Source of the DNA: Sedimentitalea nanhaiensis DSM 24252
GTDB taxonomy: Bacteria; Pseudomonadota; Alphaproteobacteria; Rhodobacterales; Rhodobacteraceae
Assembly (NCBI RefSeq): GCF_000473225.1
Contig: NZ_KI421509.1
Location: 4,304,336-4,368,335 of the forward strand
Direction of reading: 5' to 3'
DNA: 64,000 nt
Notes under the pieces: model-generated
The model's database searches: none
The model's input: only the letters and a program-made list of their open reading frames with translations
Told to the model about the DNA's origin: nothing
Made by a program: the position numbers and the translations under genes
In this document: positions 7,174-38,423 of the stretch, piece by piece
Position numbering within the stretch: the stretch's first letter is position 1
Layout: each line of letters opens with the position of its first letter

Positions 7174-9108
7174 ATGAAAGACGTTCTCGCAGCTTGGCGA
7201 ATACCATTCGCCATCCACTACCGGCAGATCCCCCTGATTTCAAAGGTGTTTTCAGGCCTGCTTCTGGCCTGCCTACTAAGCCCCGCGCTTGCGCTGGCGC
7301 AAGCCGCCGACACGCCTCGGGACGCGGCCCTCACCAGCGCCCCCGCCACGGGTGAAGAGAACACGGTTGTCACCTCTTCGGGTCTGCTCAAGACGATCCG
7401 AAGCCAGGTCAAGCAAAGCGCGGTTCTGCAGGACAGGTACAACCGGATCGTCCGGAATCCGATCTCTCCACCCGATACGCGCAGCCCACGCGCGACGCTG
7501 GGCAGTTTCCTGCTGATCATGGACGAAACCAACAGGCTCTGGCTGGACACCCGCGACCGCTACCTCGCAAGCAACGATCTCCAACTGAACCCCGAAGAAC
7601 TCGAGAACGTCGCAAAGGTGAGCGCGCTGATCGACAAGGCCTCCGAGACGCTCGACCTCTCCGACATCCCCGCTTCGTCCCGTGAGAAAACGAGCATCGA
7701 ACTGGTGCTGCAGCTTCAGGAAATCCTGGACCGGATCTATCTGCCCGAGTTGGTCGAAATTCCGGGCGTCGGTGTCGGCGCAGTGCGCACCAAGGAACAG
7801 GCCACGACGCAAGCCAAGTGGACCATCCCCGGCACGAGCCTGACCATCGCACAGCAGACCGAAGGCCCACGGCAAGGAGAATATCTGTTCACCGCGGCAA
7901 GCGTTGACCGGATTCCCAACGACTACGTCACGCTCGCGGGCCTGCCCATCATCGCGGACAATACCGAAGATACCTATCTCTACTACATCTACACGCCCGG
8001 CAATCTGATCCCGCCGCAATGGTACGAGCTCATCCTCGACGGTCCCGACTGGCTTATGTGGCCCTTCGCCGGTCAGACCGTCTGGCAGTGGATCGGACTG
8101 GTCCTGTTGGTGGTCGTCCTGCTGGCCGCGATGACCGTCTATGTGCGCTGGAACGCCCGTCGGGCAGTGCCACTGGGACTGGCCCGCAGGCAATTGCGCA
8201 GCATCGTGCCCCCCCTGCTGCTGTTGCTGTCGGTGAAACTTGCGGAATACATCTGCAACCAGCAGTTCAACATCACCGGCTCGGTGATGTTCTTCGTCAG
8301 CACCCTCGGCAGTCTGGTCTTCTGGGCCACCTCTGCCTGGTTGACCTACCAGGTCCTGCAACTGATCTACATCTGCACGGTACACAATCAGTCACTGAGC
8401 CAAACAAGTCTTGACGCAAGCCTGTTGCAAACCGGGTTCAGGGCGCTGTCCTTCGGCGTGTCGATTCTGGTTCTGGGGTACGGGGCGACGCAGATCGGCA
8501 TCCCAATCTACGGTGTCATCGCCGGTCTGGGTGTCGGCGGCTTGGCCATCGCACTCGCGGCTCAGCCCACGCTGGAGAATTTCATCGGCGGGCTGATCCT
8601 CTATGCCGACGGGATCGTAAGGGTGGGCGAGTTTTGTTCCTTCGACGATCTGGCCGGCACAGTAGAAGAAATCGGCATTCGCTCGACCCGAATCCGGGCG
8701 CTGGACCAGACGCTGATCACCGTCGCCAACGCCGACCTGTCCAAGCGCAAGATCATCAATTACAGCAAGCGCGGAGCGTTCATGTTCCGCCATCGGGTTC
8801 GTCTGCGCTACGACACGCCTTCCGAGACCCTCAAGACGATCACCGCCGACGTGCACCGCTACCTTGCCGCACATGAGCGGGTGCGGGAAAAACCGCTCCG
8901 GGTGCGGCTGGTGGAATACGGCGAGTTCTCCATTGTGATCGACATCTATGCCAACATCTCTGCCGGCAGCATGGACCAATACGTCGCCGTTCAAGAAGAA
9001 CTTCTCTACGAGATCCGCGCGGTGATCGAGGCCAACGGAGCCGGGTTCGCCATTCCGTCCTCGACCGTCTATCTGGCCCAGGACGGTGGCGTCGCCGCCG
9101 GCACGTGA
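7174..9108 (+). CDS. MscS-family mechanosensitive channel with large periplasmic domain
   Basis: The protein has 644 residues. The ATG at 7174 was chosen because it follows AAGGACCAGGA and begins a clear signal peptide (residues ~1-43, ending ALALAQA). A soluble, probably periplasmic domain of ~250 residues follows, then several membrane segments from ~310 (WQWIGLVLLVVVLLA; IVPPLLLLLSV; SVMFFVSTLGSLVFW). The conserved pore helix and beta-domain of MscS come next: GVIAGLGVGGLAIALAAQ, then ENFIGGLILYADG and the region IRVGEF-like to TRIRALDQTLITVANADL. The C-terminal alpha/beta cage ends the protein. It is much longer than E. coli MscS (286 aa), placing it among the extended MscS-like channels that gate ions under membrane tension. 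It is monocistronic. Confidence 0.9.
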   Translation: MKDVLAAWRIPFAIHYRQIPLISKVFSGLLLACLLSPALALAQAADTPRDAALTSAPATGEENTVVTSSGLLKTIRSQVKQSAVLQDRYNRIVRNPISPPDTRSPRATLGSFLLIMDETNRLWLDTRDRYLASNDLQLNPEELENVAKVSALIDKASETLDLSDIPASSREKTSIELVLQLQEILDRIYLPELVEIPGVGVGAVRTKEQATTQAKWTIPGTSLTIAQQTEGPRQGEYLFTAASVDRIPNDYVTLAGLPIIADNTEDTYLYYIYTPGNLIPPQWYELILDGPDWLMWPFAGQTVWQWIGLVLLVVVLLAAMTVYVRWNARRAVPLGLARRQLRSIVPPLLLLLSVKLAEYICNQQFNITGSVMFFVSTLGSLVFWATSAWLTYQVLQLIYICTVHNQSLSQTSLDASLLQTGFRALSFGVSILVLGYGATQIGIPIYGVIAGLGVGGLAIALAAQPTLENFIGGLILYADGIVRVGEFCSFDDLAGTVEEIGIRSTRIRALDQTLITVANADLSKRKIINYSKRGAFMFRHRVRLRYDTPSETLKTITADVHRYLAAHERVREKPLRVRLVEYGEFSIVIDIYANISAGSMDQYVAVQEELLYEIRAVIEANGAGFAIPSSTVYLAQDGGVAAGT

Positions 9109-9218
9109 CCGGCATCGCCAGGCTGCCGGCGATGCGCCCGACCTGGACCGGTCACGTTTCGGTACGGCTCCTTCTTCGGCATCTGTGCACCTGGCGATGC
9201 GCGCCACCGGGTCACGCG

Positions 9219-19415: not shown

Positions 19416-19499
19416 GGCCGGATCGGGGCGAAAAGAACCTGTGGGTGGATTGATCGCGGGTGCCTGAGCGGGCATACTGTGCCAAAAAGGGCAGTAAAC

Positions 19500-20687
19500 A
19501 TGGATGAGATTCCCCGCGACCGGTTGACCGGTTCGCTGCGCCGTGTGGCGGTGAAGAAACACGTGGCAGCGATCCATGTTTCGGGCAAGCTGACGCTGTT
19601 GCAACGCAAACTTTCCAATGTGCTGTTGCTCAATGCCTATGACACGCTGACCAGTCAGCCGCGCCATCAGATCGATGCGCGCACCCTGTGTCTGATGATC
19701 GGGTACAATTCCAACGATCTGGTGACGCTCAAGGCGTCGCTGAAGGGGCTGGCCGAGACGGTGGCGGAATGGGACATGCTGGACAGCGAGGGGCGGCAGG
19801 AATGGGGGGTATCGAGCCTGCTGAGCTATGCGACGCTGAAGGGCGGGGTGTGCGAATACGCCTATTCTCCGGCGCTGGCGGACAAGATGCACGACCCCAA
19901 GGTGTTCGCGCTGATCAACCTGAACATCCAGCGCCGGTTCACCAGCGGCCATGCGCTGGCGCTGTATGAGAACTGTTTTCGCTTTGTGCGCACCGGCAGC
20001 ACCGGATGGTGGTCGCTGGATCTGTTTCGCCGCCTGATGGGGGTGGACGGGTCACAGTATTACGAGAGCTTCAAACATCTGAACGCCAAGGTGATCAAGC
20101 CGGCGGTGGCTGAGGTCAACAAGACCAGCAATATCGTCATTCGCCCCGAAACCCGCAAACGGGGGCGGGCGGTGACGGATATCCGGTTTCTGATCAAGGA
20201 GAACCCGCAGCTGGCGATTCTGGATCTGGATGACGGGGCAGGGGTGCGCCATGGCGCGGTCTATGCGCGGCTGCGTGAGCTGGGGGTCAGCGACCGGCTG
20301 GCGCGGCAATGGCTGACCTCGCATGGCGAGGAGCAGGTGGCGGCCAAGCTGGAGTATGTCGGCACGCGCAAGAACGTCAAAAGCATGGTCGGCTATCTGA
20401 GCGCGGCGCTGGATGGCGATTTCGGCATCGAGGCGCAAGCGGACGCACCGGTGGCGGCCAACAGCGCGCAGGCCCGGCGTCTGGGTCGGGTGCAGGCGGC
20501 GGTGCAGGCGCGTACCCCGACGCAGCGTGACGCCGACAAGCGGTTGTTTCTGAACCAGATTACCGAAGCCGGGCGGCGGGCGGATTTCGAGCGGTTCGGC
20601 TGGATGTCGCCGCTGAACAAGGCGGCGATCCTGGCGTTCTGGGACGAGTTCAGCCCTGGAATATTCGACGGGATCGACGGTGACTGA
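19500..20687 (+). CDS. repA: Plasmid replication initiator protein (RepA/Rep_3-like)
   Basis: The 395-residue protein starts at the ATG at 19500 preceded by AAGGG; a GTG at 19479 is a weaker in-frame alternative. Two winged-helix-like halves are suggested: residues ~15-130 (VAAIHVSGKLTLLQRKLSNVLL; LCLMIGYNSNDLVTLKASLKGL) and ~130-235 (FALINLNIQRRFTSGHALALYENC; FRRLMGV; FKHLNAKVIKPAVAEVNKTSN), which are the landmarks of the Rep_3 / replication initiator family. It is divergent from parA, with iterons, DnaA box and AT-rich DNA between them, so the origin lies in 19083-19499. It resembles the RepA-type replicons of roseobacter plasmids. Confidence 0.9.
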   Translation: MDEIPRDRLTGSLRRVAVKKHVAAIHVSGKLTLLQRKLSNVLLLNAYDTLTSQPRHQIDARTLCLMIGYNSNDLVTLKASLKGLAETVAEWDMLDSEGRQEWGVSSLLSYATLKGGVCEYAYSPALADKMHDPKVFALINLNIQRRFTSGHALALYENCFRFVRTGSTGWWSLDLFRRLMGVDGSQYYESFKHLNAKVIKPAVAEVNKTSNIVIRPETRKRGRAVTDIRFLIKENPQLAILDLDDGAGVRHGAVYARLRELGVSDRLARQWLTSHGEEQVAAKLEYVGTRKNVKSMVGYLSAALDGDFGIEAQADAPVAANSAQARRLGRVQAAVQARTPTQRDADKRLFLNQITEAGRRADFERFGWMSPLNKAAILAFWDEFSPGIFDGIDGD

Positions 20688-26107: not shown

Positions 26108-27175
26108 TCAGGCGGTGTTCACGTCGCTCCAGTCGGACAACAGCACCTGGGCGCTGGCCTCGTCGGTGACCAGATGGCTGGCGTGCCCGCCCATCAGAAG
26201 GGCGCGGGTGGCGTCGTGTTTGGCGCGGCCCGACGACACCAGCATGCGCACCGGCACCGCCTGAAGGGTTTCCGGCGAGATGCCCAACATGCGGTCGCGC
26301 AATGGGCCGTCCAGCCCGTTGCCGTCACGGTCGATGAAATGGCCGCACAGCACCCCCACCGCGCCCCGGCCGCGGGCGTCGTCCAGTTCGGCCAGGGTGC
26401 AGACCCCCGCCGCCACCAGCGTGGTGTCCGGGCTGACGTCGCCGACCGCGAACACCGCCTTGGTCAGCTGCGCGAACTCGGCGATCTGGCGGGCGATGAT
26501 CGGTTCGCGGCGCAGCTGGTCGGCCAGCTCGGGGGTCGAGACCACCGCCGGGGCGTGCAGGGTGCGGCATTCGGCCGATGTTTTGCGGGCGATCTCGATC
26601 GAGCAGGTTTCGGCGGCGAAATGATGTTGCGAATACATCGAACCCAGCATCTGATAGACGGTCAGGCCGGGCACGGCGCTGATGGGAAAGGCGGTGGCCA
26701 GATGTTGCACCGTATGGCCCCAGGCCACGCCCAGCCGATCGCCCGGTTGCAGAATGTCGCACAGCGCCGAGGCCGCCAGTCCGGCGACCCGCAGCTGCAT
26801 GGTGTCGGGGCTGAGCGGGGTTGTGTCGTCATGGGCGACATAGGCGTCGGTCAGCCCGTAGCGCTGCGCCAGACGCCGGGCCAGGGACGAGGCGGCAAAA
26901 CTTTCACCGCGAATGCGGATCTCGACAACGCCCAGATCGCGGGCCTGGCGCAGGTAGTTGACGATGGTCGCCCGCGACACCCCCATGCGGCGCGCGATTT
27001 CCCCCTGGGTCAGCCCTTCGCGGTAGTACAGCATCGCCGCATGGGCCAGCGTCGACGCCGGGGTCTGGGCGTCGTGGCGCGGCCGGGGATCGGGGCGGGG
27101 ATCGGATCGGGGGGCGGGCCGGGGATCAGGAATGGCGGCTCTCCTATCGCAGGGCGGCTTCGATATTGCCGCCAT
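26108..27175 (-). CDS. SorC/DeoR-type sugar-binding transcriptional regulator
   Basis: The C-terminal ~270 residues form the SorC sugar-phosphate-binding domain (LQPGDRLGVAWGHTVQHLATAF; AAGVCTLAELDDARGRGAVGVLCGHFIDRDG). The helix-turn-helix is at about residues 45-75 counted from the ATG at 27175 (YYREGLTQGEIARRMGVSRATIVNYL). The start is uncertain. The ATG at 27175 has no ribosome binding site and overlaps the upstream aldolase gene by 32 nt. AGGAGA directly after that gene's stop is placed for an ATT at 27133. The next ATG, 27034, would cut the first helix of the HTH. The N-terminus has a PDPRP-type tandem repeat. It probably senses a phosphorylated intermediate of the methylthioribose/deoxyribose pathway and controls the divergent operons. 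Confidence 0.88.
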   Translation of the reverse strand: MAAISKPPCDRRAAIPDPRPAPRSDPRPDPRPRHDAQTPASTLAHAAMLYYREGLTQGEIARRMGVSRATIVNYLRQARDLGVVEIRIRGESFAASSLARRLAQRYGLTDAYVAHDDTTPLSPDTMQLRVAGLAASALCDILQPGDRLGVAWGHTVQHLATAFPISAVPGLTVYQMLGSMYSQHHFAAETCSIEIARKTSAECRTLHAPAVVSTPELADQLRREPIIARQIAEFAQLTKAVFAVGDVSPDTTLVAAGVCTLAELDDARGRGAVGVLCGHFIDRDGNGLDGPLRDRMLGISPETLQAVPVRMLVSSGRAKHDATRALLMGGHASHLVTDEASAQVLLSDWSDVNTA

Positions 27176-29186
27176 CGACGGTCATCACATGCGCCGTGGT
27201 GCGCTCGGCCAGGGCCAGTGCGACAAAGGCATGTGCGACATGATCGGCCTGGACCTCGCGGCGCAGCAGGTTTCCGGCCATGTAGCCAGCGGCGTCGGTG
27301 CCGCGTGCGGTGGCCCGCCGGTCGATGAAATCGTCGGTCAGCAGGCCGCTGCGGATCCGGTCGGCGTTGACGCCGTTGACCCGGATACCGAATTCGCCCA
27401 GTTCCAGCGCCAATTGGCGCATCAGAAACATCGTGGTCGCCTTTGGCAGGCCATAGGCACCAAAGTTGCGCCCCGGATTGACCGCCTGTTTGGAGATGTT
27501 GAACAGGATCTGCCCGCCCCGGTTCTGGGTGCGCAACAGCGCGGCGGCGGCGGTTGCAAAGCGGTGATGGGCAAAGAAATTCAGCTCGAACGCGGCGCGC
27601 AGGTCAGCTTCGGGCAGATCCAGCAGGGCACCGGTCAGGGCCGCCCCGGCGTTTGAGACCAGAATGTCGAGCCCGCCGAACGTTTCAATGGCGCATTGCA
27701 TGGCGGCCCTGGCGGATCCGGTTTCGGTCACGTCCAGCGCGATGGCGCGATGGCCGGTGCCCAGTGTCTCCAGTGCGCTTTCTAGGGCCGCCGTGTCGCG
27801 GTCCACCAGCAGGATCTGCGCCCCCCGCGCGGCAAAGGCGCGGGCCGTGGCCAGTCCGATGGCACCGGCGCCGCCGGTGATCATCACCACCCGCGAAGTC
27901 AGCGCGGGCGGGGTGCCCTTGCCCAGTTTGGCCTGTTCCAGCGACCAGTATTCCATGTCGAACAGGTCGTTCTCGGCGATGGGGCGAAAGCCGCCCGCGT
28001 CCTCGGCCACGGCGCGCACGCGCAGGTTCTGTTCGCCGATATCGGCGGCGATGGCGGCGGATTTGGCGTTGGGGCCGATGCCGACGATGCCAATGCCGTG
28101 AATCCACGCCAGATTGGGCAGCGGCGGCAGCATGGTCCTGGTGCCGCCGACACGGGCGTTCTGGCGGGTGAAATAGGCGGTATAGCGGGTGGTGAAATCG
28201 TCGATGGCGGCGGCGATCCCGTCGTGGCCAAGGGCCAGATGATCGGCGGTGATCACCACCGGAATGCCCTTGGTGCGGATCACATGATCGGGCGAGGCGA
28301 CGCCGCGGGTGGACAGGTCGGCCACATCGGGGCGGTCGAGAAATTCCATCACCGCAGGCCCGTTGCGCAGGTCCAGCACCGGCATTGGCGCGTCCGGCCC
28401 GGCGCGGTCGGCCAGGATGCCGCGCAGCAGGGGCAGGGGGTCGGTGTGCGCCAGCGGGTCGCGTTGCCCGAGGCGGGTTTCGCGGTCCATCCCCAGATGG
28501 GCGGCCAGTTCGTTGGTATGCGACACGATACGCTCATAGCTTTGGCGCGCGGTGTCGCCAAAGGCGAAATGGCCATGGTTCAGCAGCAGCAGGCCTTCGA
28601 CATCGGGATTGGCCTCGAACGCCTGGGCGGCGGCCTTGGAGAGCTGAAAGCCGGGCATGATATAGGGCACGATGGCCAGCCGGTTGCCAAAGATCTGCCG
28701 CGCGACGGCTTCGGCATCGGGCAGGTTGGCGAGCACGAGAAAGGCTGTGGCGTGGGTGTGGTCGACGAATTTATGCGGCAGATAGGCATGCAGCAGCGTT
28801 TCCACCGAGGGGTTCGGGGCGCTGCTGTCCAGCAGATTCTGGCGCTGGACATTGATCATCTGTTCGTCCGACAGCGCATCGAGCTGGCGCAGGTCGTGCA
28901 GCGGGGCAAGGCGCACGCCGGGCAGGCCGGGGGCGAGAATGGTGTCCAGATCCCAGCCCGATCCCTTGACGTGCAGCACCTGTTGCGGGGTGCCGAACAG
29001 GTCGGGGCGCGTCACCTTGACCGAGGTGTTGCCGCCGCCGTGCATGACCAGATCGGGGTTCTGGCCGATGAGGCGGCTGGTATAGACCCGCAAGGCAAGG
29101 TCGCGGTCGGCGGGGTCGTCCCCGGCCCTGGCCGCATAGGCCTCGGCTTCGGTGTCGGACCAGCGGTTTGCGATCATGCCCATCAC
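27144..29186 (-). CDS. Class II aldolase / short-chain dehydrogenase fusion
   Basis: The 680-residue protein starts with GTG at 29186 (overlapping mtnA by 4 nt) or ATG at 29183. Residues ~1-400 are a class II aldolase/adducin domain: MHGGGNTSVKV at 48-58 for phosphate binding, and the zinc ligands His143/His145 (DHTHATAF) and a third His in NHGHF (204-206). Residues ~430-680 are an SDR domain with TGGAGAIG at 437-444, Ser565, Tyr578 and Lys582. The architecture is that of rhamnulose-1-phosphate aldolase/lactaldehyde dehydrogenase fusions. No rhamnose isomerase or kinase is present. Next to mtnA and mtnK the likely substrate is 5-methylthioribulose or 5-deoxyribulose 1-phosphate, giving DHAP plus an aldehyde that the SDR half would oxidise or reduce. 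That assignment is inference. Confidence 0.85.
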   Translation of the reverse strand: MMGMIANRWSDTEAEAYAARAGDDPADRDLALRVYTSRLIGQNPDLVMHGGGNTSVKVTRPDLFGTPQQVLHVKGSGWDLDTILAPGLPGVRLAPLHDLRQLDALSDEQMINVQRQNLLDSSAPNPSVETLLHAYLPHKFVDHTHATAFLVLANLPDAEAVARQIFGNRLAIVPYIMPGFQLSKAAAQAFEANPDVEGLLLLNHGHFAFGDTARQSYERIVSHTNELAAHLGMDRETRLGQRDPLAHTDPLPLLRGILADRAGPDAPMPVLDLRNGPAVMEFLDRPDVADLSTRGVASPDHVIRTKGIPVVITADHLALGHDGIAAAIDDFTTRYTAYFTRQNARVGGTRTMLPPLPNLAWIHGIGIVGIGPNAKSAAIAADIGEQNLRVRAVAEDAGGFRPIAENDLFDMEYWSLEQAKLGKGTPPALTSRVVMITGGAGAIGLATARAFAARGAQILLVDRDTAALESALETLGTGHRAIALDVTETGSARAAMQCAIETFGGLDILVSNAGAALTGALLDLPEADLRAAFELNFFAHHRFATAAAALLRTQNRGGQILFNISKQAVNPGRNFGAYGLPKATTMFLMRQLALELGEFGIRVNGVNADRIRSGLLTDDFIDRRATARGTDAAGYMAGNLLRREVQADHVAHAFVALALAERTTAHVMTVDGGNIEAALR

Positions 29187-30286
29187 GCCACCCTGGACGC
29201 GTGTTCGGGGAACATTGCGGCCAGACCGTCGGCGCTGGCGGGGCTGACACCGCGTTCGGTGATCAGCCCGGTGACCAGCCGGGCGGGGGTGACGTCAAAC
29301 GCCGGGTTGCCCACATCCGAACCTTGCGGCGTGACCTGGACCTCGGCGATCGTGCCATCGGAGCCGACGCCCTGCACATGGCTGACCTCGCGGGGGTTGC
29401 GTTCTTCGATCGGGATTTGGGCAACGCCGTCGCGCAGGGTCCAGTCGATGGTGGGCGACGGCAGCGCGACATAAAAGGGCACGTTGTTGTCATGTGCGGC
29501 CAGGGCCTTGAGATAGGTGCCGATCTTGTTGCACACGTCGCCCTGTGCGGTGGTGCGGTCGGTGCCGGTGATGACCATGTCCACCAGCCCGTGTTGCATC
29601 AGGTGGCCACCGGCGTTGTCGGTGACATAGGCATGGCTGACGCCGTGGCTGTTCAGTTCCCACGCAGTCAGCGCGCCCTGATTGCGGGGTCGGGTTTCGT
29701 CGACCCAGACATGGATGTCGATCCCGGCCTCGGCGGCCTGAAACATCGGGCTGGTGGCGGTGCCCCAGTCCACGGTGGCCAGCCATCCGGCGTTGCAATG
29801 GGTCAGCAGGCGCACCGGTTCGCCCGCCGGTTTGCGCGCCGCGATGTCGCGGATGATCGCCAGCCCGTTCTGGCCGATGCGGCGGTTGATCTCGACGTCC
29901 TCGTCGGCCATGTCATGGGCCAGCTGCATCGCGGCGGCGGCCCGGTCGGCAGGCGCCAGCGGGGCCAGATGGGCGCGGCAGCGGTCAAGCGCCCACCGCA
30001 GGTTGATGGCGGTGGGGCGGGTGGCGTTCAGCGCCTCCCATGCGGCGTCCAGATTGGCATCGGACGGATCGCGGGCCATGTCTCCGGCGACGCCATACGC
30101 TGCCGTGACCCCGATCAGCGGCGCGCCGCGCACCCACATCTCGTAGATGGCGGTGGTGAAATCTGCGCGCGATTTCAGGGGTGCGATGCGGAAATCATGG
30201 GGCAACCAGCGCTGGTCGATGATGCGCACTTCGGCGGCGTCGTGATCGTACCAGATAGAGCGATAGGGGGTGCCGTTGACCTTCAT
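29183..30286 (-). CDS. mtnA: S-methyl-5-thioribose-1-phosphate isomerase
   Basis: The 367-residue protein shows the MtnA signatures: VRGAPLIGVTAAYGVA near residues 51-66, THCNAGWLAT near 163-172 with the catalytic Cys, VDETRPRNQGALTAWEL near 197-213, and GTDRTTAQGDVCNKIGTY near 240-258 with the catalytic Asp. It opens the ribose ring of 5-methylthioribose 1-phosphate to the 1-phospho-ketose, and homologues accept 5-deoxyribose 1-phosphate. It overlaps mtnK and the aldolase gene by 4 nt each, so the three enzymes are translationally linked. Confidence 0.94.
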   Translation of the reverse strand: MKVNGTPYRSIWYDHDAAEVRIIDQRWLPHDFRIAPLKSRADFTTAIYEMWVRGAPLIGVTAAYGVAGDMARDPSDANLDAAWEALNATRPTAINLRWALDRCRAHLAPLAPADRAAAAMQLAHDMADEDVEINRRIGQNGLAIIRDIAARKPAGEPVRLLTHCNAGWLATVDWGTATSPMFQAAEAGIDIHVWVDETRPRNQGALTAWELNSHGVSHAYVTDNAGGHLMQHGLVDMVITGTDRTTAQGDVCNKIGTYLKALAAHDNNVPFYVALPSPTIDWTLRDGVAQIPIEERNPREVSHVQGVGSDGTIAEVQVTPQGSDVGNPAFDVTPARLVTGLITERGVSPASADGLAAMFPEHASRVA

Positions 30287-31548
30287 GGAAAAACTCTTTC
30301 GTTATAGCGTTGGGCGAGGGCGACCAGATCGCCGGGTGTGGCGATGTCGGCCCGGTTCAGGATCAGATCGCGCCCCATCATCAGATTGCGCGCCTCAAGC
30401 CGGGCGCGCAGGGCGGTGTCGGCGATGGTTTCGAACTCGGCGTTATGGGCCAGCGACAGCACCCGGCGGTGCATTTCGATACCGCAGAAACCCATGGCGT
30501 CCTGCCAGATCGCCGCCAGCCGGTCCGCCAGCGCCGGCCCGGAACTGTGGCCCTGATCTTCGAACAGGGCGGGCGGGTACAGGATGCCGGTGCGCTCATG
30601 GTGCCAGAGGTGGCCGAATTCGTCGCCATAGCTGGCGGCGATGTCGCGGATCACCGACAGGATCCAGGTCTGGAACGCGGGCAGGTCGCTGGCGCTGCGG
30701 TGGGCCGGTTGGCTGAGATAGGCCATCAGGAAGTTGGCCAGCATCATGCCCAGATCGAACCCCATCGGCCCGTAGCAGGCAAATTCGGGGTCGATCACCC
30801 GCAGGTCGTCATCGGTACACATGACCGACCCTGTGTGCAGATCGCCGTGCAGCATGGTTTCGCCGTGGCTGGCAAACCGGGTCAGCATGTGCTGGACCTG
30901 GGTTTTCATCGCTACGTCGGCGCGCAGGGTGGCGACAACCGGGCCCAGCTCCGGCGTGTGGTGGTTGCGCGGGGCATCGAAATAGGGGTCGGTGAACACC
31001 AGACTTTCGGTGATGTCACAGAGGGCCACATTGTCCAGAAACAGCGCCGCGTCGGCCTTGCGTTGCGCGGTCGGCATCGCCAGATCCGAGCCGCGAAAGG
31101 CGGTGCGGGCGGCAAACCGGCCCAGCGTGTCGGCCAGCCCGGCGGTTTTCTGGCCGGCGATCAGCCGCCCGCGCAGGATGGTATGGGGCGACAGGAATTC
31201 CATCACGATCAGCGCCTGGGAGTCGTCGAAATAATGCACCTGCGGCACCCGGCCCGGATCGCGGGCGGCCTGACGGATCAGGGCGTGATATTCAAAGAAC
31301 GCACGTTTCAGCGGCAGGGGCCAGCTGTCGCCGACCAGCCGAACGTATGGCAGCGCCTGTTTGACCACCACGCTGCCCGCCGGGCCGGTGACGATGAACA
31401 CCAGGTTCAGATTGCCGTCGCCGACTTCGCGCACGTCCCATGCACCGGGGTCGCCGCCGATGCGCGTGGCGACATCGGCCAGGCCGCCCAGCCGGGCGCC
31501 CAATGTGTCCACGGTCAGGGGGTCATAGCCTGCGGGCAAATCGCTCAT
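30283..31548 (-). CDS. mtnK: S-methyl-5-thioribose kinase
   Basis: This 421-residue protein has the aminoglycoside-phosphotransferase-like fold of MtnK: ATP-binding EVGDGNLNLVFIV near 41-53, catalytic MLHGDLHTGSVM near 231-242, and metal-binding VIDPEFACYGPMGFDLG near 249-265. The C-terminal GIEMHRRVLSLAHNAEF is also typical. It phosphorylates 5-methylthioribose (and in some bacteria 5-deoxyribose) at C1. First gene of the minus-strand operon, it diverges from the ABC importer across a 114-bp regulatory gap. Its presence indicates that the free sugar, not MTA, is the entry compound; no MTA nucleosidase or phosphorylase lies in the window. Confidence 0.93.
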   Translation of the reverse strand: MSDLPAGYDPLTVDTLGARLGGLADVATRIGGDPGAWDVREVGDGNLNLVFIVTGPAGSVVVKQALPYVRLVGDSWPLPLKRAFFEYHALIRQAARDPGRVPQVHYFDDSQALIVMEFLSPHTILRGRLIAGQKTAGLADTLGRFAARTAFRGSDLAMPTAQRKADAALFLDNVALCDITESLVFTDPYFDAPRNHHTPELGPVVATLRADVAMKTQVQHMLTRFASHGETMLHGDLHTGSVMCTDDDLRVIDPEFACYGPMGFDLGMMLANFLMAYLSQPAHRSASDLPAFQTWILSVIRDIAASYGDEFGHLWHHERTGILYPPALFEDQGHSSGPALADRLAAIWQDAMGFCGIEMHRRVLSLAHNAEFETIADTALRARLEARNLMMGRDLILNRADIATPGDLVALAQRYNERVFP

Positions 31549-31604
31549 CGGTGGTCCTCCATCCTCCGTCTGTCGCGGACCGACTCTGACTTGTGGCTGT
31601 CATT

Positions 31605-31621
31605 TGTCAAGGGTGTTGACA
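31605..31621. promoter_or_regulatory. Operator/promoter between mtnK and the ABC importer
   Basis: TGTCAA-N5-TTGACA is a perfect inverted repeat in the 114-bp divergent region. The right arm is also a consensus -35 for the plus operon, with a weak -10 near TAACGA (~31638). ATTTGTC is repeated on both sides (31602-31608, 31621-31627). It is a plausible SorC-regulator site controlling both operons. Confidence 0.5.
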
Positions 31622-31662
31622 TTTGTCGCGTTGGCCATAACGATCCGCTGCGGGAGGATGAG

Positions 31663-33174
31663 ATGAACGGCGCAGCCTGCACCATGGTCGGAATCGAAAA
31701 GGCGTTCGGGCCAAACCGGGTGCTGCGGGGCATCGACATGGTTCTGTGGCCCGGTCAGGTGACAGTGTTGATGGGGGCCAACGGGGCGGGAAAATCGACG
31801 CTGGTCAAGCTGTTGTGCGGGGTGCATCAGCCCGATGGCGGGCGGATCGAGCTGTTCGGCCGGCCCTATGCGCCGCTCACCCCGGCCGAGGCGATCAACG
31901 CGGGCGTGGTGACGGTGCATCAGTCGATCAACGACGGGGTCATTCCCGATCTGGATGTGGCGTCCAATCTGATGCTGGACCGGTTGACCGATGCGCGGTC
32001 GGGGTTCTTTGTGCGCGGTCGCGCCCTGCGGGCCGAGGCGGCCAGGATCGCCGGCGCGATGGGGCTGGATCTGGATGTGCGCGCCACGGTGGGCGATCTG
32101 GGTGTGGCCGAGCGGCAGTTGATCGCCATTGCCCGCGCGATGGCGCGCGATCCCAAAGTGCTGATCCTGGACGAGCCGACCTCGTCCCTGTCGGCGACCG
32201 AGGCCGAGCGGTTGTTTGCGCTGCTGGACCGGTTGCGCGACCAGGGGGTGGCGATCCTGTATATTTCTCATCGCATGTCCGATATCCGCCGGATTGCCGA
32301 CCGGATCATTTCGATGCGCGACGGGCAGATTTCCGGCACCTTCGAGGACGCGCCGCTGGATTACGAAGGCGCGGTGACGGCGATGCTGGGCCATGGGCTG
32401 ACCCAGGTCGATATCACCATTCCGGTGCCCGGTCCCGAGGTGTTGCGGCTGGACGGGCTGTGCCTGTCATCGGGGGGGCAACCGATCGATCTGAGCCTGC
32501 GGCGCGGTGAGGTGGTGGCCGTGACCGGGTTGCTGGGCAGCGGCAAGACGGCGCTGGCCTCGATCCTGTTCGGGCTGATGCAGGCGACGGCGGGTACGGT
32601 CACGTTGAACGGGGCGCGGTTTGCGCCGCAATCTCCGGGCGATGCGATCCGGGCCGGTGTGTTCCTGTGTTCCAAGGACCGCGCCAGCAACGGGGTGATT
32701 CCGGATTTCGACATCACCGGCAACCTGACCTTGCCGTTCACGCGGCGGCATGCGCGGCTGTCGTTTCTGTCGGGCACCAGCGAGCGGGCGGCCGCGCGGG
32801 CGATGATCGAGCACCTGGGCATTATCTGTCAGGGGCCGGGCGATGGCATCGACACCCTGTCGGGGGGCAATCAGCAAAAGGTGATGGTGGGGCGCTGGCT
32901 GGCCCAGACCAGCCAGGTGCTGTTGCTGGACGAACCGTTTCAGGGTGTGGATATCCGGGCGCGGCGCGACATCGGCAACCGTATCCGCGAGGGGGCGGCA
33001 GAGCGGGCCACCATCGTTTTTGCCGCCGAACTGGACGAGGCGCTGGAAATCGCCGACCGCATCGTGGTGCTGAACGAAGAGGCGCTGGTGGGCGAACACC
33101 GAAATGAAAATGTCGATCTCAACCGGATGCTGGCGCAGGTCTCCGGTCAGGAAATCGCAACGGGGCAGATCTGA
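31663..33174 (+). CDS. Sugar ABC transporter ATPase (RbsA-like, two ATPase domains)
   Basis: The 503-residue protein starts at the ATG at 31663 after GGGAGGA; the frame is open from 30310, but that part is antisense to mtnK. Two nucleotide-binding domains are fused, as in RbsA/XylG. The first has Walker A GANGAGKST near 36-44, signature GVAERQLIAIARAMA and Walker B LILDEPTSSLS. The second has Walker A GLLGSGKTA near 284-292, signature LSGGNQQKVMVGRWLA and LLLDEPFQGVD. It powers import by the following permease and receptor. Confidence 0.93.
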   Translation: MNGAACTMVGIEKAFGPNRVLRGIDMVLWPGQVTVLMGANGAGKSTLVKLLCGVHQPDGGRIELFGRPYAPLTPAEAINAGVVTVHQSINDGVIPDLDVASNLMLDRLTDARSGFFVRGRALRAEAARIAGAMGLDLDVRATVGDLGVAERQLIAIARAMARDPKVLILDEPTSSLSATEAERLFALLDRLRDQGVAILYISHRMSDIRRIADRIISMRDGQISGTFEDAPLDYEGAVTAMLGHGLTQVDITIPVPGPEVLRLDGLCLSSGGQPIDLSLRRGEVVAVTGLLGSGKTALASILFGLMQATAGTVTLNGARFAPQSPGDAIRAGVFLCSKDRASNGVIPDFDITGNLTLPFTRRHARLSFLSGTSERAAARAMIEHLGIICQGPGDGIDTLSGGNQQKVMVGRWLAQTSQVLLLDEPFQGVDIRARRDIGNRIREGAAERATIVFAAELDEALEIADRIVVLNEEALVGEHRNENVDLNRMLAQVSGQEIATGQI

Positions 33175-33178
33175 AATC

Positions 33179-34192
33179 ATGCAGAACCAGAAGCTATTGA
33201 ATTTCGCCATCCGCTATGGGTTTCTGATCCTGCTTGTGGGTCTGGTGACCTATTTCAGCGTGGCGGCCAGCGGCTTTGCCGGGCCGCGCTCGGCCGTGTT
33301 CATCTTTCAGTCGGTGGCGATCACCGGAATTCTGGCGCTGGGGGTGACCTGTACGCTGGTGGTGGGCGGGTTCGATCTGTCGATCGGGTCGGTCGCGACC
33401 TCGGCGCTAATGCTGTCGGCCTATATGATGGTGGTGCTGGAGCAATCGGCGCTGGTTGCGGTGGGCGCCTGTCTGCTGATGGGGGCGCTGGTGGGGCTGA
33501 TCAACGGGCTGTTGATCGTGCGTATGAAGGTGCCCGATCTGCTGGCGACGCTGGGAATGATGTTCCTGCTGATCGGGTTGCAGCGCATTCCGACCGAGGG
33601 GCGGTCGATTTCCACCGGCATGACCCTGCCGGACGGGTCCACTGCCGAGGGGGTGTTTTCGCCCGCCTTCCTGTGGCTGGGGCGGCATCGGTTCGATCTG
33701 GTGCTGGAGAATCTGATTCCGGTGCCGGTGGTGCTGTTTCTGATCGTCGGGGTGCTGGTCTGGGTGTTTCTGGAACTGACCCGCCATGGGCGGCTGATGT
33801 ATGCCATCGGCTCTAACGAGCGCGCCGCCGGTTTGGCCGGCACCAACGTCAACCGTTACAAGATCCTTGCCTATATGATCTCGGGGGTGCTGGCGTCGGT
33901 CGGGGGTATTCTGCTGGCGGCGCGGCTGGGGCGGGGCGATATTGCCAGCGGCAACAACCTGTTGCTGGATGCGGTCGCTGCCGGGCTGATCGGGTTTGCG
34001 GTGCTGGGTGCGGCCAAGCCGAATGCGTTTGGCACCGCCATCGGGGCGCTGTTTGTCGGCATCCTGCTGCAGGGGCTGACGATGATGAACGCACCTTATT
34101 ATACGCAGGATTTTGTCAAAGGGGCGGTGCTGGTCGTTGCCCTTGTGTTCACCTTTGCGCTGTCGTCAAAGCGGCGCGGCGGCGGGCACTGA
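33179..34192 (+). CDS. Sugar ABC transporter permease (RbsC-like)
   Basis: The 337-residue protein starts at the ATG at 33179, 4 bp after the ATPase gene. It has 8-10 membrane segments and the RbsC/BPD_transp_2 motifs: GVTCTLVVGGFDLSIGSVAT near 57-76, NGLLIVRMKVPDLLATLG near 108-126, and GSNERAAGLAGTNVNRYKILAYMISG near 215-240. It would form a homodimeric channel for a pentose-like sugar. Start upstream of this ATG is excluded by overlap with the ATPase reading frame. Confidence 0.92.
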   Translation: MQNQKLLNFAIRYGFLILLVGLVTYFSVAASGFAGPRSAVFIFQSVAITGILALGVTCTLVVGGFDLSIGSVATSALMLSAYMMVVLEQSALVAVGACLLMGALVGLINGLLIVRMKVPDLLATLGMMFLLIGLQRIPTEGRSISTGMTLPDGSTAEGVFSPAFLWLGRHRFDLVLENLIPVPVVLFLIVGVLVWVFLELTRHGRLMYAIGSNERAAGLAGTNVNRYKILAYMISGVLASVGGILLAARLGRGDIASGNNLLLDAVAAGLIGFAVLGAAKPNAFGTAIGALFVGILLQGLTMMNAPYYTQDFVKGAVLVVALVFTFALSSKRRGGGH

Positions 34193-34229
34193 TCGCGGGC
34201 AACCGCATAATCGTCCATGGGAGGACAAA

Positions 34230-35282
34230 ATGGAACTTTTCAGACGCGGATTTTTCAAGCTGACCGGTGCGGCAGTGCTGGCCACCACGGCCCTGGGGGG
34301 GGCGGCGCAGGCGGCGGACATGCCCGCCCCGTTCGACAATCCGGGCGAGGTGCAGATCGCCCTGGTGCGCTATTTGTCCACCGGCGATTTCTTTCAGGCC
34401 TATCTGGGCGGGGTCGAGGCGCAGGCCAAGGCGCTCGGTGTCGATCTGCGGGTGCTGGACAGCCGTCAGGATGCGGCCTTGCAGGCCGATATGGTCGATC
34501 AGGCGATTGCCCTGGGGGTCGACGGCATCATCATTCAGCACGGGCTGACCGAGTCGATGCAAGAGGCCGCGCAGCGTGCGGTGGATGCGGGGATCAAGGT
34601 CGTGGCCTTTGACGTGAACGTCGAAAACCCGGCGATTCCGCAGATTGAGCAGTCCGATTACCTGCTGGGCAAACTGGCGCTGGAACAGGCCGTCAAGGAC
34701 AATGGCGACAGCTGGAACGCCGCCTATGTCTATGTGCCGGGCATTGCGCCGCTGGATCGGCGCGATCAGGCGTGGCAGGATATTCGGGCGGAATATTCCG
34801 GTATCCAGGAGGTCGCGCAATTCGGCACGCTGGACAATCCGATTGCCAATTCCAACGCCAATCAGGCGCGCTCGGTGTTGCAGGCCAACCCCGATATCAG
34901 CGTGATCTTTGCGCCCTATGACGAATTTGCCAAGGGGGTAAAAATCGCCGTGGACGAGGCCGGTCTGTCGTCTGACATCAAGATCTATTCCGCCGATGTG
35001 TCCACTGCGGACATCTCGGCAATGCGCGAACCGGACAGTGCCTGGGCCGCCACCGTGGCGACCAACCCGGCGGTGGTGGGCGAGGTCAGCGTGCGCGCAT
35101 TGGCGATGATGCTGGCGGGTGAAGATCCGGGCGCGTCGGTGATCGTGCCGCCGACTTTGATCACCCAGGATTTCCTGAACGAAAAGGACATCACCAACAT
35201 GGAAACCCTGTCGGCGCAGATGCCGCAGTTTGCCCATGCCGATGTGGCAACGCCGGACTGGATGCCGCTGCCGCCGCGCTGA
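34230..35282 (+). CDS. Sugar ABC transporter substrate-binding protein (RbsB-like)
   Basis: The 350-residue receptor starts at the ATG at 34230 after GGGAGGAC. It has a twin-Arg-like or Sec signal peptide (MELFRRGFFKLTGAAVLATTALGGAAQAA, residues 1-29). The mature part is a type 1 periplasmic binding protein: ALVRYLSTGDFFQAYLGGVEAQAKALGVDL near 44-73, DQAIALGVDGIIIQHG, then GIKVVAFDVNVEN. The hydrophobic residues needed for a methylthio or methyl group cannot be assigned without a structure. It probably binds 5-methylthioribose or 5-deoxyribose, judged from the neighbours mtnK and mtnA. Confidence 0.9.
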   Translation: MELFRRGFFKLTGAAVLATTALGGAAQAADMPAPFDNPGEVQIALVRYLSTGDFFQAYLGGVEAQAKALGVDLRVLDSRQDAALQADMVDQAIALGVDGIIIQHGLTESMQEAAQRAVDAGIKVVAFDVNVENPAIPQIEQSDYLLGKLALEQAVKDNGDSWNAAYVYVPGIAPLDRRDQAWQDIRAEYSGIQEVAQFGTLDNPIANSNANQARSVLQANPDISVIFAPYDEFAKGVKIAVDEAGLSSDIKIYSADVSTADISAMREPDSAWAATVATNPAVVGEVSVRALAMMLAGEDPGASVIVPPTLITQDFLNEKDITNMETLSAQMPQFAHADVATPDWMPLPPR

Positions 35283-35295
35283 CGCGCACAAACGG

Positions 35296-35326
35296 GCGGG
35301 GGGCTGTCGCGGCCCTCTGCCCCCGC
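35296..35326 (+). terminator. Intercistronic hairpin after the receptor gene
   Basis: GCGGGGG (35296-35302) pairs with CCCCCGC (35320-35326) and is followed only by TTTG. Hairpins directly after binding-protein genes commonly stabilise the upstream mRNA or attenuate downstream genes, raising receptor dosage over the enzymes. Confidence 0.5.
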
Positions 35327-35356
35327 TTTGCCGACCGATACCAAGAAGGTTCCGCC

Positions 35357-36310
35357 ATGCTCGACACTCTGCGCCGCAACGACAAATCCACCGAGGAGGT
35401 GGCCTTGGGCATCCGCCGCCGGGTGTTTGAGCATGCCATGCGCAACAATGGCGGTTACCTGTCGCAGGCCTGTTCCGCCGCCGAGCAGCTGGCCTGGCTG
35501 TATAACGAAGAACTGTCCCTGGGCGCGCCGACCCTTCCGATGATCCCGAAACCGTTTGGCGGCGTGCCGTCGGCGGACAACCCCGAGTATCACACCGGCG
35601 CCGGGTACAATGGCCCTGCCGCGCCGGAATTCGACCGGCTGTTCATTGCGCCGGCGCATTACGCGCTGGTGGCCTATGCCACTCTGATCGAGGTGGGCCG
35701 CATGGCACCGGAGGGGCTGGAGATGTTCAACAGGGACGGATCCAGTGTCGAGATGATCGGGGCCGAGCACAGCCCCGGCATGGAGGTGCATAATGGCACG
35801 CTGGGCATCGGGTTTTCCACCGCCGCCGGGCTGGCCTGGGGCCGCAAGCGCCGGGGCGAACCGGGCCGCACCTGGGTCTATATGTCGGACGGCGAGGTGC
35901 AGGAGGGCCAGACCTGGGAAGCGATTGCCGCCGCCGCCCATCACCGGATCGACAATCTGTATGCGATCATGGACGTCAACCGGCAGCAATGCGACGGGGC
36001 GATGAGGTCGGTGATGGACGTGGGCGACATCGGGGCCAAGATCGAAGCCTTCGGCGGGGTGGCCGTCTGGGTGGATGGGCACGATCTGGACCAGATGCGC
36101 GCGGCGGTAAAGACGCCGCACCGGGGCAAGCCGTTGATCATACTGGCAAACTCAAGCCCGTTTAGAGGCATGCCGACCTTGCAGCTGCGGTTTCCACGGC
36201 TGCATTACGTGCGGTTCAAATCCGAAGCCGAGCGTGCGCGGATGAACCGCGATATTGCCAGATCGCTGGGTGTTTCGCCCGTCGATTACGGTCAGACAGG
36301 GGGCAAATGA
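35357..36310 (+). CDS. Transketolase, N-terminal (ThDP pyrophosphate-binding) subunit
   Basis: The 317-residue protein matches the first domain of transketolase. AEHSPGMEVHNGTLGIGFSTAAGLAWG near 137-165 and the ThDP motif SDGEVQEGQTWEAIAAAAHHRIDN...DVN (GDGE-like start near 175) bind thiamine diphosphate and Mg. Splitting of transketolase into two genes is known in archaea and in carbohydrate cassettes such as apulose-4-phosphate transketolase. It overlaps the C-terminal subunit gene by 4 nt. The ketose substrate is unknown; the context suggests a product of the RuBisCO-like protein. Confidence 0.9.
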   Translation: MLDTLRRNDKSTEEVALGIRRRVFEHAMRNNGGYLSQACSAAEQLAWLYNEELSLGAPTLPMIPKPFGGVPSADNPEYHTGAGYNGPAAPEFDRLFIAPAHYALVAYATLIEVGRMAPEGLEMFNRDGSSVEMIGAEHSPGMEVHNGTLGIGFSTAAGLAWGRKRRGEPGRTWVYMSDGEVQEGQTWEAIAAAAHHRIDNLYAIMDVNRQQCDGAMRSVMDVGDIGAKIEAFGGVAVWVDGHDLDQMRAAVKTPHRGKPLIILANSSPFRGMPTLQLRFPRLHYVRFKSEAERARMNRDIARSLGVSPVDYGQTGGK

Positions 36311-37314
36311 TGGTCGAGATGGTGTCGCGCCCTTACGAGCGGGCGTTTGAAAAACATGCGCTGGCCAATCCGGATGTGCTGTGCCTGTCCGCCGATCTGA
36401 CCAGTTCCTGCGAGATCGACAGGTTTCGCGACACTCATCCCGAGCAGTTTCTGAGTCTGGGCATGGCGGAACAGAACATGATGAGCTTTGCCGGGGGGCT
36501 GGGGCTGGCGGGGTTTCGTCCGTTCATCCACACCTTTGGCGTGTTCCTGTATCGGCGGCCCTATGATCAGCTGATGGCCTCGGTCGCATATCCCCGGCGC
36601 AAGGTGCGGCTGATGGGGTTCCTGCCGGGCATCACCACGCCGGGCGGCATGACCCATCAGGCGATCGAGGACATCAGCGTGATGCGGTCGATCCCCAATA
36701 TGACGGTGCTCGAAACCGGCGATGCCACCGAGGTCGAGAGCATCTGCGAAGCCGCCGACAGCATCGATGGCCCGGTTTATTGCCGGGTGCTGCGCGGGTC
36801 GGTGCCGCGTCTGTTCGACACGCCGATACAGGTTGGCAGGATGCGCGAGCTGGCATTGGGCGACGACGTTCTGATCGTCACCTCGGGCATCACCACCGAG
36901 GAAGCCCTGCGCGCGCGGGCGGCGCTGGAGGGGGCGGGCGTGTCGGTGCGGCATCTGCATCTGAATACGATCAAGCCATTCGATGCCGCCGCGATGCTGG
37001 ATCACATCGGATCGGTACGCCACGGGGTGGTGACGCTGGAAAACCATGTCACCGAGGGCGGCATCGGATCGTTGCTGGCCGAGATCATGGCCGACAACGG
37101 CACCGGCAAGCGGCTGGTGCGGCTGGGGCTGAAAGACACCTATGCCCATGGCGGTTCGCGCCCCTATCTGATGAAACACTACGGGCTGGATGCCACCGCG
37201 CTGGTGGCCGGGGTCGAGCGGGTGATGGGGGCTGCCCTTGACATTGGCGAGGCCGATCTGGCCGCCGCGCGCATCGAGGCGGTGCATTCCACCGTCAAGG
37301 CCGAGGGGCTATGA
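36307..37314 (+). CDS. Transketolase, C-terminal (pyrimidine-binding) subunit
   Basis: The 335-residue protein corresponds to the second and third transketolase domains. SLGMAEQNMMSFAGGLGLAG near 54-74 includes the Glu that activates ThDP, and GMTHQAIEDISVMRSIPNM near 115-134 is a strongly conserved family motif. The C-terminal domain (from ~200, GDDVLIVTSGITTEEAL) is shared with DXP synthase and pyruvate dehydrogenase E1-beta. It overlaps both neighbours by 4 nt and so is made in step with the N-terminal subunit and the RuBisCO-like protein. Confidence 0.9.
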   Translation: MMVEMVSRPYERAFEKHALANPDVLCLSADLTSSCEIDRFRDTHPEQFLSLGMAEQNMMSFAGGLGLAGFRPFIHTFGVFLYRRPYDQLMASVAYPRRKVRLMGFLPGITTPGGMTHQAIEDISVMRSIPNMTVLETGDATEVESICEAADSIDGPVYCRVLRGSVPRLFDTPIQVGRMRELALGDDVLIVTSGITTEEALRARAALEGAGVSVRHLHLNTIKPFDAAAMLDHIGSVRHGVVTLENHVTEGGIGSLLAEIMADNGTGKRLVRLGLKDTYAHGGSRPYLMKHYGLDATALVAGVERVMGAALDIGEADLAAARIEAVHSTVKAEGL

Positions 37315-38423
37315 CCGCACGGTTTACCGTCACCTATCGTCTTTTTGCCGCCGACCGGGCCGAGGCGCTGGCCCGCGCCGAGGGTATCGCGCTGGAGCAG
37401 ACCGTGGAAATTCCGCGTGACGTGGTGCCGCCGGGATTTATCGAGGATGAGATTCTGGGCCGGGTCCAGGAGATCGGGACCGAGGCCGAGGGACAGTGGC
37501 GTGCCACGGTCAGCTACAGCCCGCAAAGCTGTGGCGCCGAGTTGCCGCAACTGTTGAATGTGGTGTTTGGCAATTCCAGCATCCAGCGGGGGATCAAGGT
37601 GATCGGGCTGGATCTGGGTCCGCTGACCAAGGCCTTTCCGGGGGCGCGGTTCGGGGTCGGGGGGCTGCGCAGGCTGGCGGATCTGGAGCGGGGGCCTTTC
37701 ATTGCGCCGGTGCTGAAACCGCAGGGCTCCAGTGCGGCGCAGCTGGCGGAAACCGCGTACCTCTGTGCCATGGGGGGGGCCCATATCGTCAAGGAAGATC
37801 ACGGGTTGACCAACCAGCCCTGTGCGCCGTTTCGTGACCGGGTCGAGGCCATCGCCGAAGCGCTGGCACGCGCGCGCGCGCGGACCGGGCGGCCCTGTCT
37901 GTATTTTGCCGGGCTGGCCGGGCACAGTGAGGAGCTGGACGACATGGCGGCGTTTGCCGTGCGGGCCGGGGTGGACGGCCTGTTGCTGATGCCGGGGCTG
38001 TTTGGTTTTGACACGGTGCATCGGCTGGCGCGCAATGACCGGATCAACCTGCCGATCATGACCCACCCCAGCTTTTTGGGGCCTTATGTCCTGTCGTCCG
38101 ATACCGGGTTCAGCCACGCGATGATGTTCGGCACGTTGCAGCGGCTGGCGGGGGCGGATATTTCGGTGTTTCCCAACGTTGGCGGGCGGTTCGGATTCAC
38201 GGCGCAGGATTGCGCGGCGATTGCTGCCGCCTGCGGCGATCCGGCGGGCATCGGCCGGGCGATCCTGCCCAGCCCGGGCGGGGGCATGAGTCCCGAGCGG
38301 GGGGCCGGGATGCTGGCGATGTACGGTGAGGATGCGGTGTTCCTGTTGGGCGGCAGCCTGTTGCGCCACGGGGCACGTATCGGTGAGGCGATCGCCGATC
38401 TGCGCAACGGCCTTGCCGGGTGA
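37311..38423 (+). CDS. RuBisCO-like protein (form IV, RLP)
   Basis: This 370-residue protein has the RuBisCO large-subunit fold, N-terminal domain ~1-110 and TIM barrel ~120-370. LKPQG (Lys136) corresponds to RuBisCO Lys175. The metal/carbamate motif, KDDE in RuBisCO, reads KEDH (161-164), keeping the Lys and middle Asp but replacing Glu204 by His. THPS (His252), SPGGG (321-325) and LGGS (346-349) match the barrel histidine and phosphate-binding loops. The loop 6 Lys334 is not evident, so it should not fix CO2. Length is like the Rhodospirillum rubrum RLP, which isomerises 5-methylthioribulose 1-phosphate. Position with mtnK/mtnA supports a similar isomerisation; 3-oxo-isoapionate-4-phosphate decarboxylase is the main alternative. 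Confidence 0.88.
   Translation: MTARFTVTYRLFAADRAEALARAEGIALEQTVEIPRDVVPPGFIEDEILGRVQEIGTEAEGQWRATVSYSPQSCGAELPQLLNVVFGNSSIQRGIKVIGLDLGPLTKAFPGARFGVGGLRRLADLERGPFIAPVLKPQGSSAAQLAETAYLCAMGGAHIVKEDHGLTNQPCAPFRDRVEAIAEALARARARTGRPCLYFAGLAGHSEELDDMAAFAVRAGVDGLLLMPGLFGFDTVHRLARNDRINLPIMTHPSFLGPYVLSSDTGFSHAMMFGTLQRLAGADISVFPNVGGRFGFTAQDCAAIAAACGDPAGIGRAILPSPGGGMSPERGAGMLAMYGEDAVFLLGGSLLRHGARIGEAIADLRNGLAG

Follow-up and report, generated by a model that had tools for sequence, protein, structure and literature searches.

A split transketolase in the place of the shunt cupin beside a RuBisCO-like protein: a candidate ending for 5-methylthioribose catabolism in Sedimentitalea nanhaiensis

What does a transketolase do next to a RuBisCO-like protein (RLP) in a gene cluster for 5-methylthioribose (MTR)? 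The question is raised by ten genes at positions 26108..38423 of a 64,000-nucleotide (nt) stretch of contig NZ_KI421509.1 of Sedimentitalea nanhaiensis DSM 24252, which as a whole we call the window. Here, two plus-strand genes encoding the halves of a split transketolase, TktN (35357..36310) and TktC (36307..37314), lead directly into the RLP gene (37311..38423), and genes for MTR kinase (MtnK), 5-methylthioribose-1-phosphate isomerase (MtnA) and an aldolase lie on the other strand. The exits from 5-methylthioribulose-1-phosphate described in PMC4958253 and PMC5893883 are two, namely an aldolase, and an RLP plus a cupin; among the titles listed in searches of open-licence PMC papers, none describes an MTR pathway in which a transketolase follows an RLP. 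Our analysis indicates that the system is of a known kind, i.e., MTR/methylthioadenosine (MTA) salvage via MtnA and RLP, and that the transketolase ending and its second genomic context are new. More specifically, sequence comparisons make it probable that the RLP product is the substrate of the transketolase in an MTR/MTA pathway, and we lean, at a little better than even odds, towards a catabolic and sulphur-salvage route for imported MTR that ends in the split transketolase. Methanethiol elimination as the outcome of the transketolase step is proposed tentatively, by analogy with other enzymes that use thiamine diphosphate (ThDP).

The gene set is conserved and is not a chance association, because the same genes cluster in 39 further distinct loci (one duplicate removed, window excluded), an outcome that answers the comparative search suggested in the initial annotation. 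Among 54 distinct related RLP loci outside the window, these 39 carry the transketolase adjoining the RLP, 14 carry a cupin, one (L031) lies at a contig end, and none carries both. In the transketolase-type loci, one of which (L005) is cut inside TktC, at most 39 bases separate TktC from the RLP, and both lie on one strand. The stretches fetched around the 39 contained MtnA in 34 cases, MtnK in 31, the receptor in 31, the aldolase fused to a short-chain dehydrogenase/reductase (SDR) in 28 and the shunt cupin in none, counts that are lower bounds given that some stretches stop at contig ends. Scanning contigs with the RLP as query yielded seven loci, six with TktN and TktC adjoining the RLP and L005, which begins within TktC. 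In our sample of the order, an RLP was present at E<=1e-40 in 26 of 390 genomes (own genome included), and TktN and TktC occurred in all 25 others, so that the RLP-transketolase branch is found in 25 of 389 genomes when the own genome is not counted. At the level of the class, 17 of 385 genomes (own included) had an RLP at E<=1e-30; among the 16 others, two (L026 and L027) had the transketolase and 14 did not. A sample of the phylum added two new loci (RLP in 6/398 genomes), L073 with the transketolase and L074 with a cupin.

Gene order tells the same story. The order mtnK-mtnA-tktN-tktC-rlp on one strand recurred in L073 and in all five plasmid regions opened; the RLP had matches in 23 plasmid records altogether, two of them from Vibrio. 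The opened plasmids belong to Hyphomicrobiales, four from Rhizobiaceae and one from Mariluticola (Devosiaceae), and carry the importer, the aldolase-SDR and a SorC gene alongside. In L026, MtnA and TktN are fused in a single open frame of 656 amino acids (7149-9119 of that locus). Separately, two loci (L081 and L087, in genomes G403 and G400) consist of RLP-TktC-TktN alone, with no MtnA, MtnK or importer nearby; in both genomes MtnA is encoded elsewhere and MtnK was not found.

The transketolase stands where other RLP loci have a cupin. Fourteen of the 15 loci without transketolase encode, within 164 bases of the RLP and on the same strand, a member of a single protein family that is 141-160 residues long, and Cupin_2 was recognised in all six of these that were scanned; the fifteenth, L031, ends 33 bases past its RLP. 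The arrangement of the 14 loci is that of the MTA-isoprenoid shunt of Rhodospirillum rubrum and Rhodopseudomonas palustris, in which, according to PMC4958253 and PMC5893883, MtnA delivers 5-methylthioribulose-1-phosphate, the RLP isomerises it to 1-methylthioxylulose-5-phosphate, and the cupin step yields 1-deoxyxylulose 5-phosphate (DXP) and methanethiol. The present cluster shares MtnA with that shunt and likewise has an RLP, though one that differs in segment 264-269 (see below). It departs from the shunt in that the split transketolase replaces the cupin methylsulfurylase, in the window as in the transketolase-type loci, and in that entry is by an MTR importer and a kinase rather than by MTA phosphorylase; different end products are expected. 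A tblastn comparison of the window with the 14 shunt cupins revealed no relative (best E 0.039), a search that did not extend to the remainder of the own genome. Both the absence of the cupin from the window and the transketolase in its place, as put forward in the initial annotation, are thus upheld.

The RLP is the only PF00016 match at E<=0.001 in the 4.95-Mb own genome. Six NCBIfam models match it, all with scores under their cut-offs, including those for MtnW (192 vs. 409 bits for NF007095; 146 vs. 513.6 for TIGR03332) and OiaX (54 vs. 700), and it carries H164 at the position of an MtnW Glu. We aligned 40 RLPs of the transketolase type with 16 of the cupin type, the latter including L031 and R. 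palustris chain 3qfw (presumably the DeepYkr RLP1 of the paper, to judge by the name of 2qyg). Fifty-one columns are at least 95% identical with the same residue in both types, among them K136, K161, D163, H164 (the KxDHG motif), H252 and R293, and in the tree the two types are divided by one branch (96/91). The MtnW outgroup branch is very long and does not settle whether the transketolase or the cupin is the older partner. The simplest reading is that both groups catalyse the same 1,3-isomerisation, here predicted for 5-methylthioribulose-1-phosphate, a changed product being possible. A statement that no RLP column is type-specific proved too strong, as the 95% threshold had hidden a six-residue gap. 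A further observation concerns the cupin-adjoined RLP of L074 (genome G1014, outside the own class), which is 41% identical to the window RLP, keeps the length of segment 264-269 and is long-branched in the tree.

The two transketolase halves were compared with E. coli TktA (L095) across 44 family rows, 38 from loci with RLP and six from the second context described below. TktN, the ThDP-binding half, contains Transketolase_N, and TktC, the pyrimidine/C-terminal half, contains Transket_pyr and Transketolase_C; the domains, the ThDP/Mg residues, the catalytic Glu and H66, H261 and H473 are shared with TktA and with the split transketolase of Carboxydothermus hydrogenoformans (6yaj/6yak). All 44 rows keep the Mg/ThDP-binding Asp and Asn (D178 and N208 of TktN), H66, H261, S385, E411, H473 and R520. 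In contrast to TktA, all 44 replace H26 by Tyr (Y34 in the window), H100 by Ile (I134), H461 by Phe and D469 by Gly. H26 and H100 are located at the C1 end of the donor, and an apolar C1 pocket would suit CH3-S-CH2 better than CH2OH. None of five split transketolases used for comparison has Ile at H100; two of them, L120 and the apulose-like L121, retain His at both H26 and H100. TktC scores 153 bits against the DXS model TIGR00204, far below the cut-off of 466.

From gene content, conservation, the exchange of cupin for transketolase and the residues kept and changed, we infer each catalytic step of the following route. The ABC importer would take up MTR, MtnK would convert it to MTR-1-phosphate and MtnA would convert this to 5-methylthioribulose-1-phosphate, in which a carbonyl shift catalysed by the RLP would yield 1-methylthioxylulose-5-phosphate, on the model of the MTA-isoprenoid shunt. 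ThDP on the split transketolase would then attack C2 of this ketose, and cleavage between C2 and C3 would release glyceraldehyde-3-phosphate and leave a methylthio-acetyl carbanion on the cofactor. As the most plausible outcome, methanethiol would be expelled from the bound carbanion, and the resulting acetyl-ThDP would yield acetate or acetyl phosphate. With CH2-SCH3 next to the C2 carbonyl, the carbanion would lie beside a leaving group, and methanethiol loss would be expected by analogy with phosphoketolase, which loses hydroxide, and sulfoacetaldehyde acetyltransferase, which loses sulfite; in both, a leaving group lies beside a ThDP carbanion and acetyl phosphate is formed. The likeness to these two enzymes is one of mechanism only. 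Such a mechanism would explain why the RLP step is needed and how a transketolase can replace the cupin. The aldolase-SDR would form a second, optional exit and may serve 5-deoxyribose. The own genome has seven matches to PTA_PTB, a family into which parts of malic enzymes also fall, and an O-acetylhomoserine sulfhydrylase above its cut-off.

A second context of the transketolase bears on its substrate. TktC was detected at E<=1e-110 in 31 of 390 genomes of the order, i.e., the 26 with RLP and five others. All seven TktN/TktC loci without RLP (those of the five genomes and plasmids L097 and L098) encode a relative of BisC-family S/N-oxide reductases, a Zn dehydrogenase and an FGGY kinase most similar to xylulokinase, adjacent to or within ~8 kb of the transketolase; five of the seven also encode an AraD-like epimerase. 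At E<=1e-60, the five genomes yielded no MtnA. In a tree built from joined TktN and TktC sequences, loci of the two contexts are intermingled, and because this tree requires at least three changes between the contexts, the transketolase has probably moved between them. To judge from the genes, dehydrogenase and xylulokinase could give a ketopentose 5-phosphate directly, making the RLP dispensable, and the reductase relative suggests a sulphur (or nitrogen) substituent. The second context points independently to a putative 1-thio-xylulose 5-phosphate as the transketolase substrate. We also note that in these loci (L097, L098 and L112-L116) the genes often occur with AraD, a sulfonate-type ABC importer and a sulfatase, an assembly that resembles an undescribed sulphur-sugar pathway.

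The remaining genes of the window form, with those above, two divergent operons separated by a 114-bp region (31549..31662) that may hold the promoters. On the minus strand lie MtnK (30283..31548; TIGR01767, 456 bits vs. a cut-off of 275), MtnA (29183..30286; TIGR00512, 411 vs. 279), both thus above curated NCBIfam cut-offs, a class II aldolase-SDR fusion (27144..29186; PRK08324.1-6, 867 vs. 639, with Aldolase_II and adh_short) as predicted exit to the dihydroxyacetone phosphate (DHAP) shunt, and a SorC/DeoR-type sugar-responsive regulator (26108..27175; Pfam Sugar-bind, 188 bits). On the plus strand, TktN is preceded by a CUT2-type ABC importer, for which we chose the start codons, consisting of an ATPase (31663..33174; PRK11288.1 AraG, 398 bits, under the cut-off of 689), a permease (33179..34192; BPD_transp_2, 144 bits) and a periplasmic receptor (34230..35282), predicted to bind MTR and whose closest solved relative is the MTR receptor of the 4ry8 type. 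This relationship disfavours 5-deoxyribose or apiose as the ligand. The gene content and placement given by the initial annotation were borne out, all ten genes being open reading frames at the positions it gave. Its 4-nt overlaps inside each operon hold for aldolase/MtnA, MtnA/MtnK, TktN/TktC and TktC/RLP; the SorC and aldolase genes overlap by 32 nt, and gaps of 4, 37 and 74 nt separate ATPase/permease, permease/receptor and receptor/TktN, respectively.

The window clusters MtnK, MtnA and a class II aldolase, the genes (with MtnP as the alternative to MtnK) by which the DHAP shunt is recognised. Entry by MtnK and MtnA with two possible exits from the ketose 1-phosphate, as initially annotated, is accordingly supported. 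The same three proteins characterise the DHAP shunt and 5-deoxyribose salvage, according to PMC10986504, PMC6079011 and PMC5893883. Unlike there, the aldolase of the window is SDR-fused, is one of two possible exits and lacks a close counterpart in 8 of the 26 related genomes. The latter figure comes from a survey of 51 whole genomes, of which 26 have RLP and transketolase, five have the second context and 20 are controls (taken from the top of the list of genomes without a match and so not sampled at random). MtnA was present in 26/26, 0/5 and 5/20 of these groups, respectively (Fisher p 3e-8), MtnK in 23/26, 0/5 and 1/20 (p 9e-9), and the aldolase-SDR in 18/26, 0/5 and 1/20 (p 1e-5), all p values comparing the first group with the controls and ignoring kinship. 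The eight genomes had no close aldolase-SDR at E<=1e-120 among up to 23 candidates scored per genome, a search that would pass over a more distant aldolase; an obligatory role of the aldolase was rejected on this basis, and the coexistence of both branches seen by the initial annotation stands for the window. Acireductone dioxygenase, by which universal aerobic methionine salvage is recognised, was found in none of the 51 genomes, own included. As a separate observation, the three opened of the five MtnA-bearing controls (G252, G331 and G390, order members without RLP or transketolase; L131-L133) each encode MtnA followed by a relative of class II aldolase/AraD (27-31% identity), as expected of a plain DHAP shunt.

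Several observations weigh against the MTR route ending in the transketolase. RLP segment 264-269, six residues long, is missing from 15 of the 16 cupin-type rows, whereas G266 is present in 40/40 and H269 in 39/40 transketolase-type rows, both also occurring in MtnW; because of this difference, the products of the two RLP groups may not be identical. The argument from transketolase residues is modest: the comparison proteins L117-L119 also have Tyr at H26 (and Ser at H100), H461 and D469 are replaced in all five, and only Ile at H100 is therefore distinctive. Moreover, the nearest equivalent of TktA R358 is an Arg displaced by one column, in 43 of 44 rows, so that phosphate binding appears partly uncertain. 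Models of the receptor had a mean predicted local distance difference test score (pLDDT) of at most 63 in four of five cases. Two second-context proteins of L098 stay below model cut-offs, its BisC relative scoring 810 bits against TIGR00509 (cut-off 1017.6) and its kinase 262 bits against TIGR01312 (cut-off 380). Two loci have phosphorylases of the inosine/guanosine type, not MTA phosphorylase. In L006 (Oceaniovalibus guishaninsula), which has MtnA, TktN, TktC and RLP and in whose 21-kb stretch MtnK, the MTR importer and the aldolase-SDR were not found, the phosphorylase and an ABC importer with a Bmp/PnrA-type receptor adjoin the RLP; in L026, the MtnA-TktN fusion neighbours a SorC gene and, divergently, genes for a NupC-type nucleoside transporter and a purine nucleoside phosphorylase. 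Use of MTA phosphorylase at these loci was rejected on the type of the enzymes, which imply at most methylthioinosine or deoxyinosine or are mere neighbours; they could provide the 1-phosphate without a kinase. Finally, relatives of MtnK and MtnA also accept 5-deoxyribose, as stated in PMC6079011, so that 5-deoxyribose is a possible substrate here too.

This acceptance speaks for the idea, set out in the initial annotation, that the RLP makes DXP straight from 5-deoxyribulose-1-phosphate; in such a reading, the substrate is 5-deoxyribose and the transketolase uses or cleaves DXP. The DXS-model match of TktC is in its favour too, as is the lack, shared with DXS, of a His at the H100 position. 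The receptor is nearest to an MTR receptor, however, a full-length dxs lies elsewhere in the own genome, TktC stays far below the DXS cut-off, the second context brings in an S/N-oxide reductase relative, and a DXP-making RLP would need no transketolase of its own, which would moreover destroy the product. We therefore consider this reading distinctly unlikely, and of the earlier interpretation the transketolase in the cupin's place is supported, whereas the 5-deoxyribose/DXP part lacks support and stays only as a weak alternative. If the transketolase acted on the same methylthio substrate without loss of methanethiol, the methylthio-acetyl unit would be either protonated, to 2-(methylthio)acetaldehyde, or transferred, to form a longer 1-methylthio-ketose. 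This would be ordinary transketolase chemistry, and a transketolase reaction forms 7-deoxysedoheptulose from 5-deoxyribose in vitro (PMC8102628). Since the aldolase is itself expected to yield 2-(methylthio)acetaldehyde (PMC5893883), the RLP-transketolase branch would then be redundant; the branch is kept in the eight genomes without a close aldolase-SDR, and a longer thio-ketose seems a dead end; this outcome is unlikely, if less so than the DXP one.

The cluster could also combine two unrelated pathways that happen to be neighbours, with MtnK, MtnA and aldolase-SDR forming a plain DHAP shunt and importer, transketolase and RLP degrading another pentose. Split transketolases and RLPs are also found in apiose/apionate pathways, and the OiaX model does match the RLP weakly. 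With the genes in a single operon in the five plasmid regions, MtnA fused to TktN in L026 and MtnA in every RLP-transketolase genome surveyed, such a coincidence is very improbable, and the apiose/apionate reading itself was rejected on the receptor's match to an MTR receptor, the fusion, the operon order and the OiaX score far below its cut-off. Equally little credit goes to another 5-substituted 5-deoxyribose handled by the same logic, e.g., MTR sulfoxide or an algal arsenosugar: arsenosugars are 5-substituted 5-deoxyribosides and the second context includes an S/N-oxide reductase relative, but the ten window genes include no such reductase or arsenic gene, and the receptor again matches that for MTR.

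Two features beside the cluster are recorded in passing. A plasmid replication initiator of the Rep_3 type (Rep3_N and Rep3_C; 19479-20687) lies within the 4.41-Mb contig, near a local GC-skew minimum at ~17 kb, and perhaps marks an integrated plasmid or a secondary origin. Between 21335 and 26107, a TRAP importer, a PF04199 cyclase and an FAA hydrolase form one plus-strand run that abuts the SorC gene.

Taken together, the two contexts lead us to a broader, more speculative proposal, less than evenly probable and drawn by analogy: a new split ThDP enzyme family that cuts C-S bonds in sugars and, in the manner of phosphoketolase, would convert 1-methylthioxylulose-5-phosphate to glyceraldehyde-3-phosphate, methanethiol and an acetyl unit. 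It would be fed either by MtnK-MtnA-RLP from methylthioribose (or by phosphorylase-MtnA-RLP from nucleosides), or by the S/N-oxide reductase, dehydrogenase and kinase from a possibly sulfoxide-bearing pentitol. If the transketolase-ended MTR route is right, methanethiol would be released without oxygen or glutathione and both carbon fragments would enter central metabolism. Many genes now annotated merely as transketolase and RuBisCO-like protein would gain a function, and the second gene context would indicate an undescribed sulphur-sugar route.

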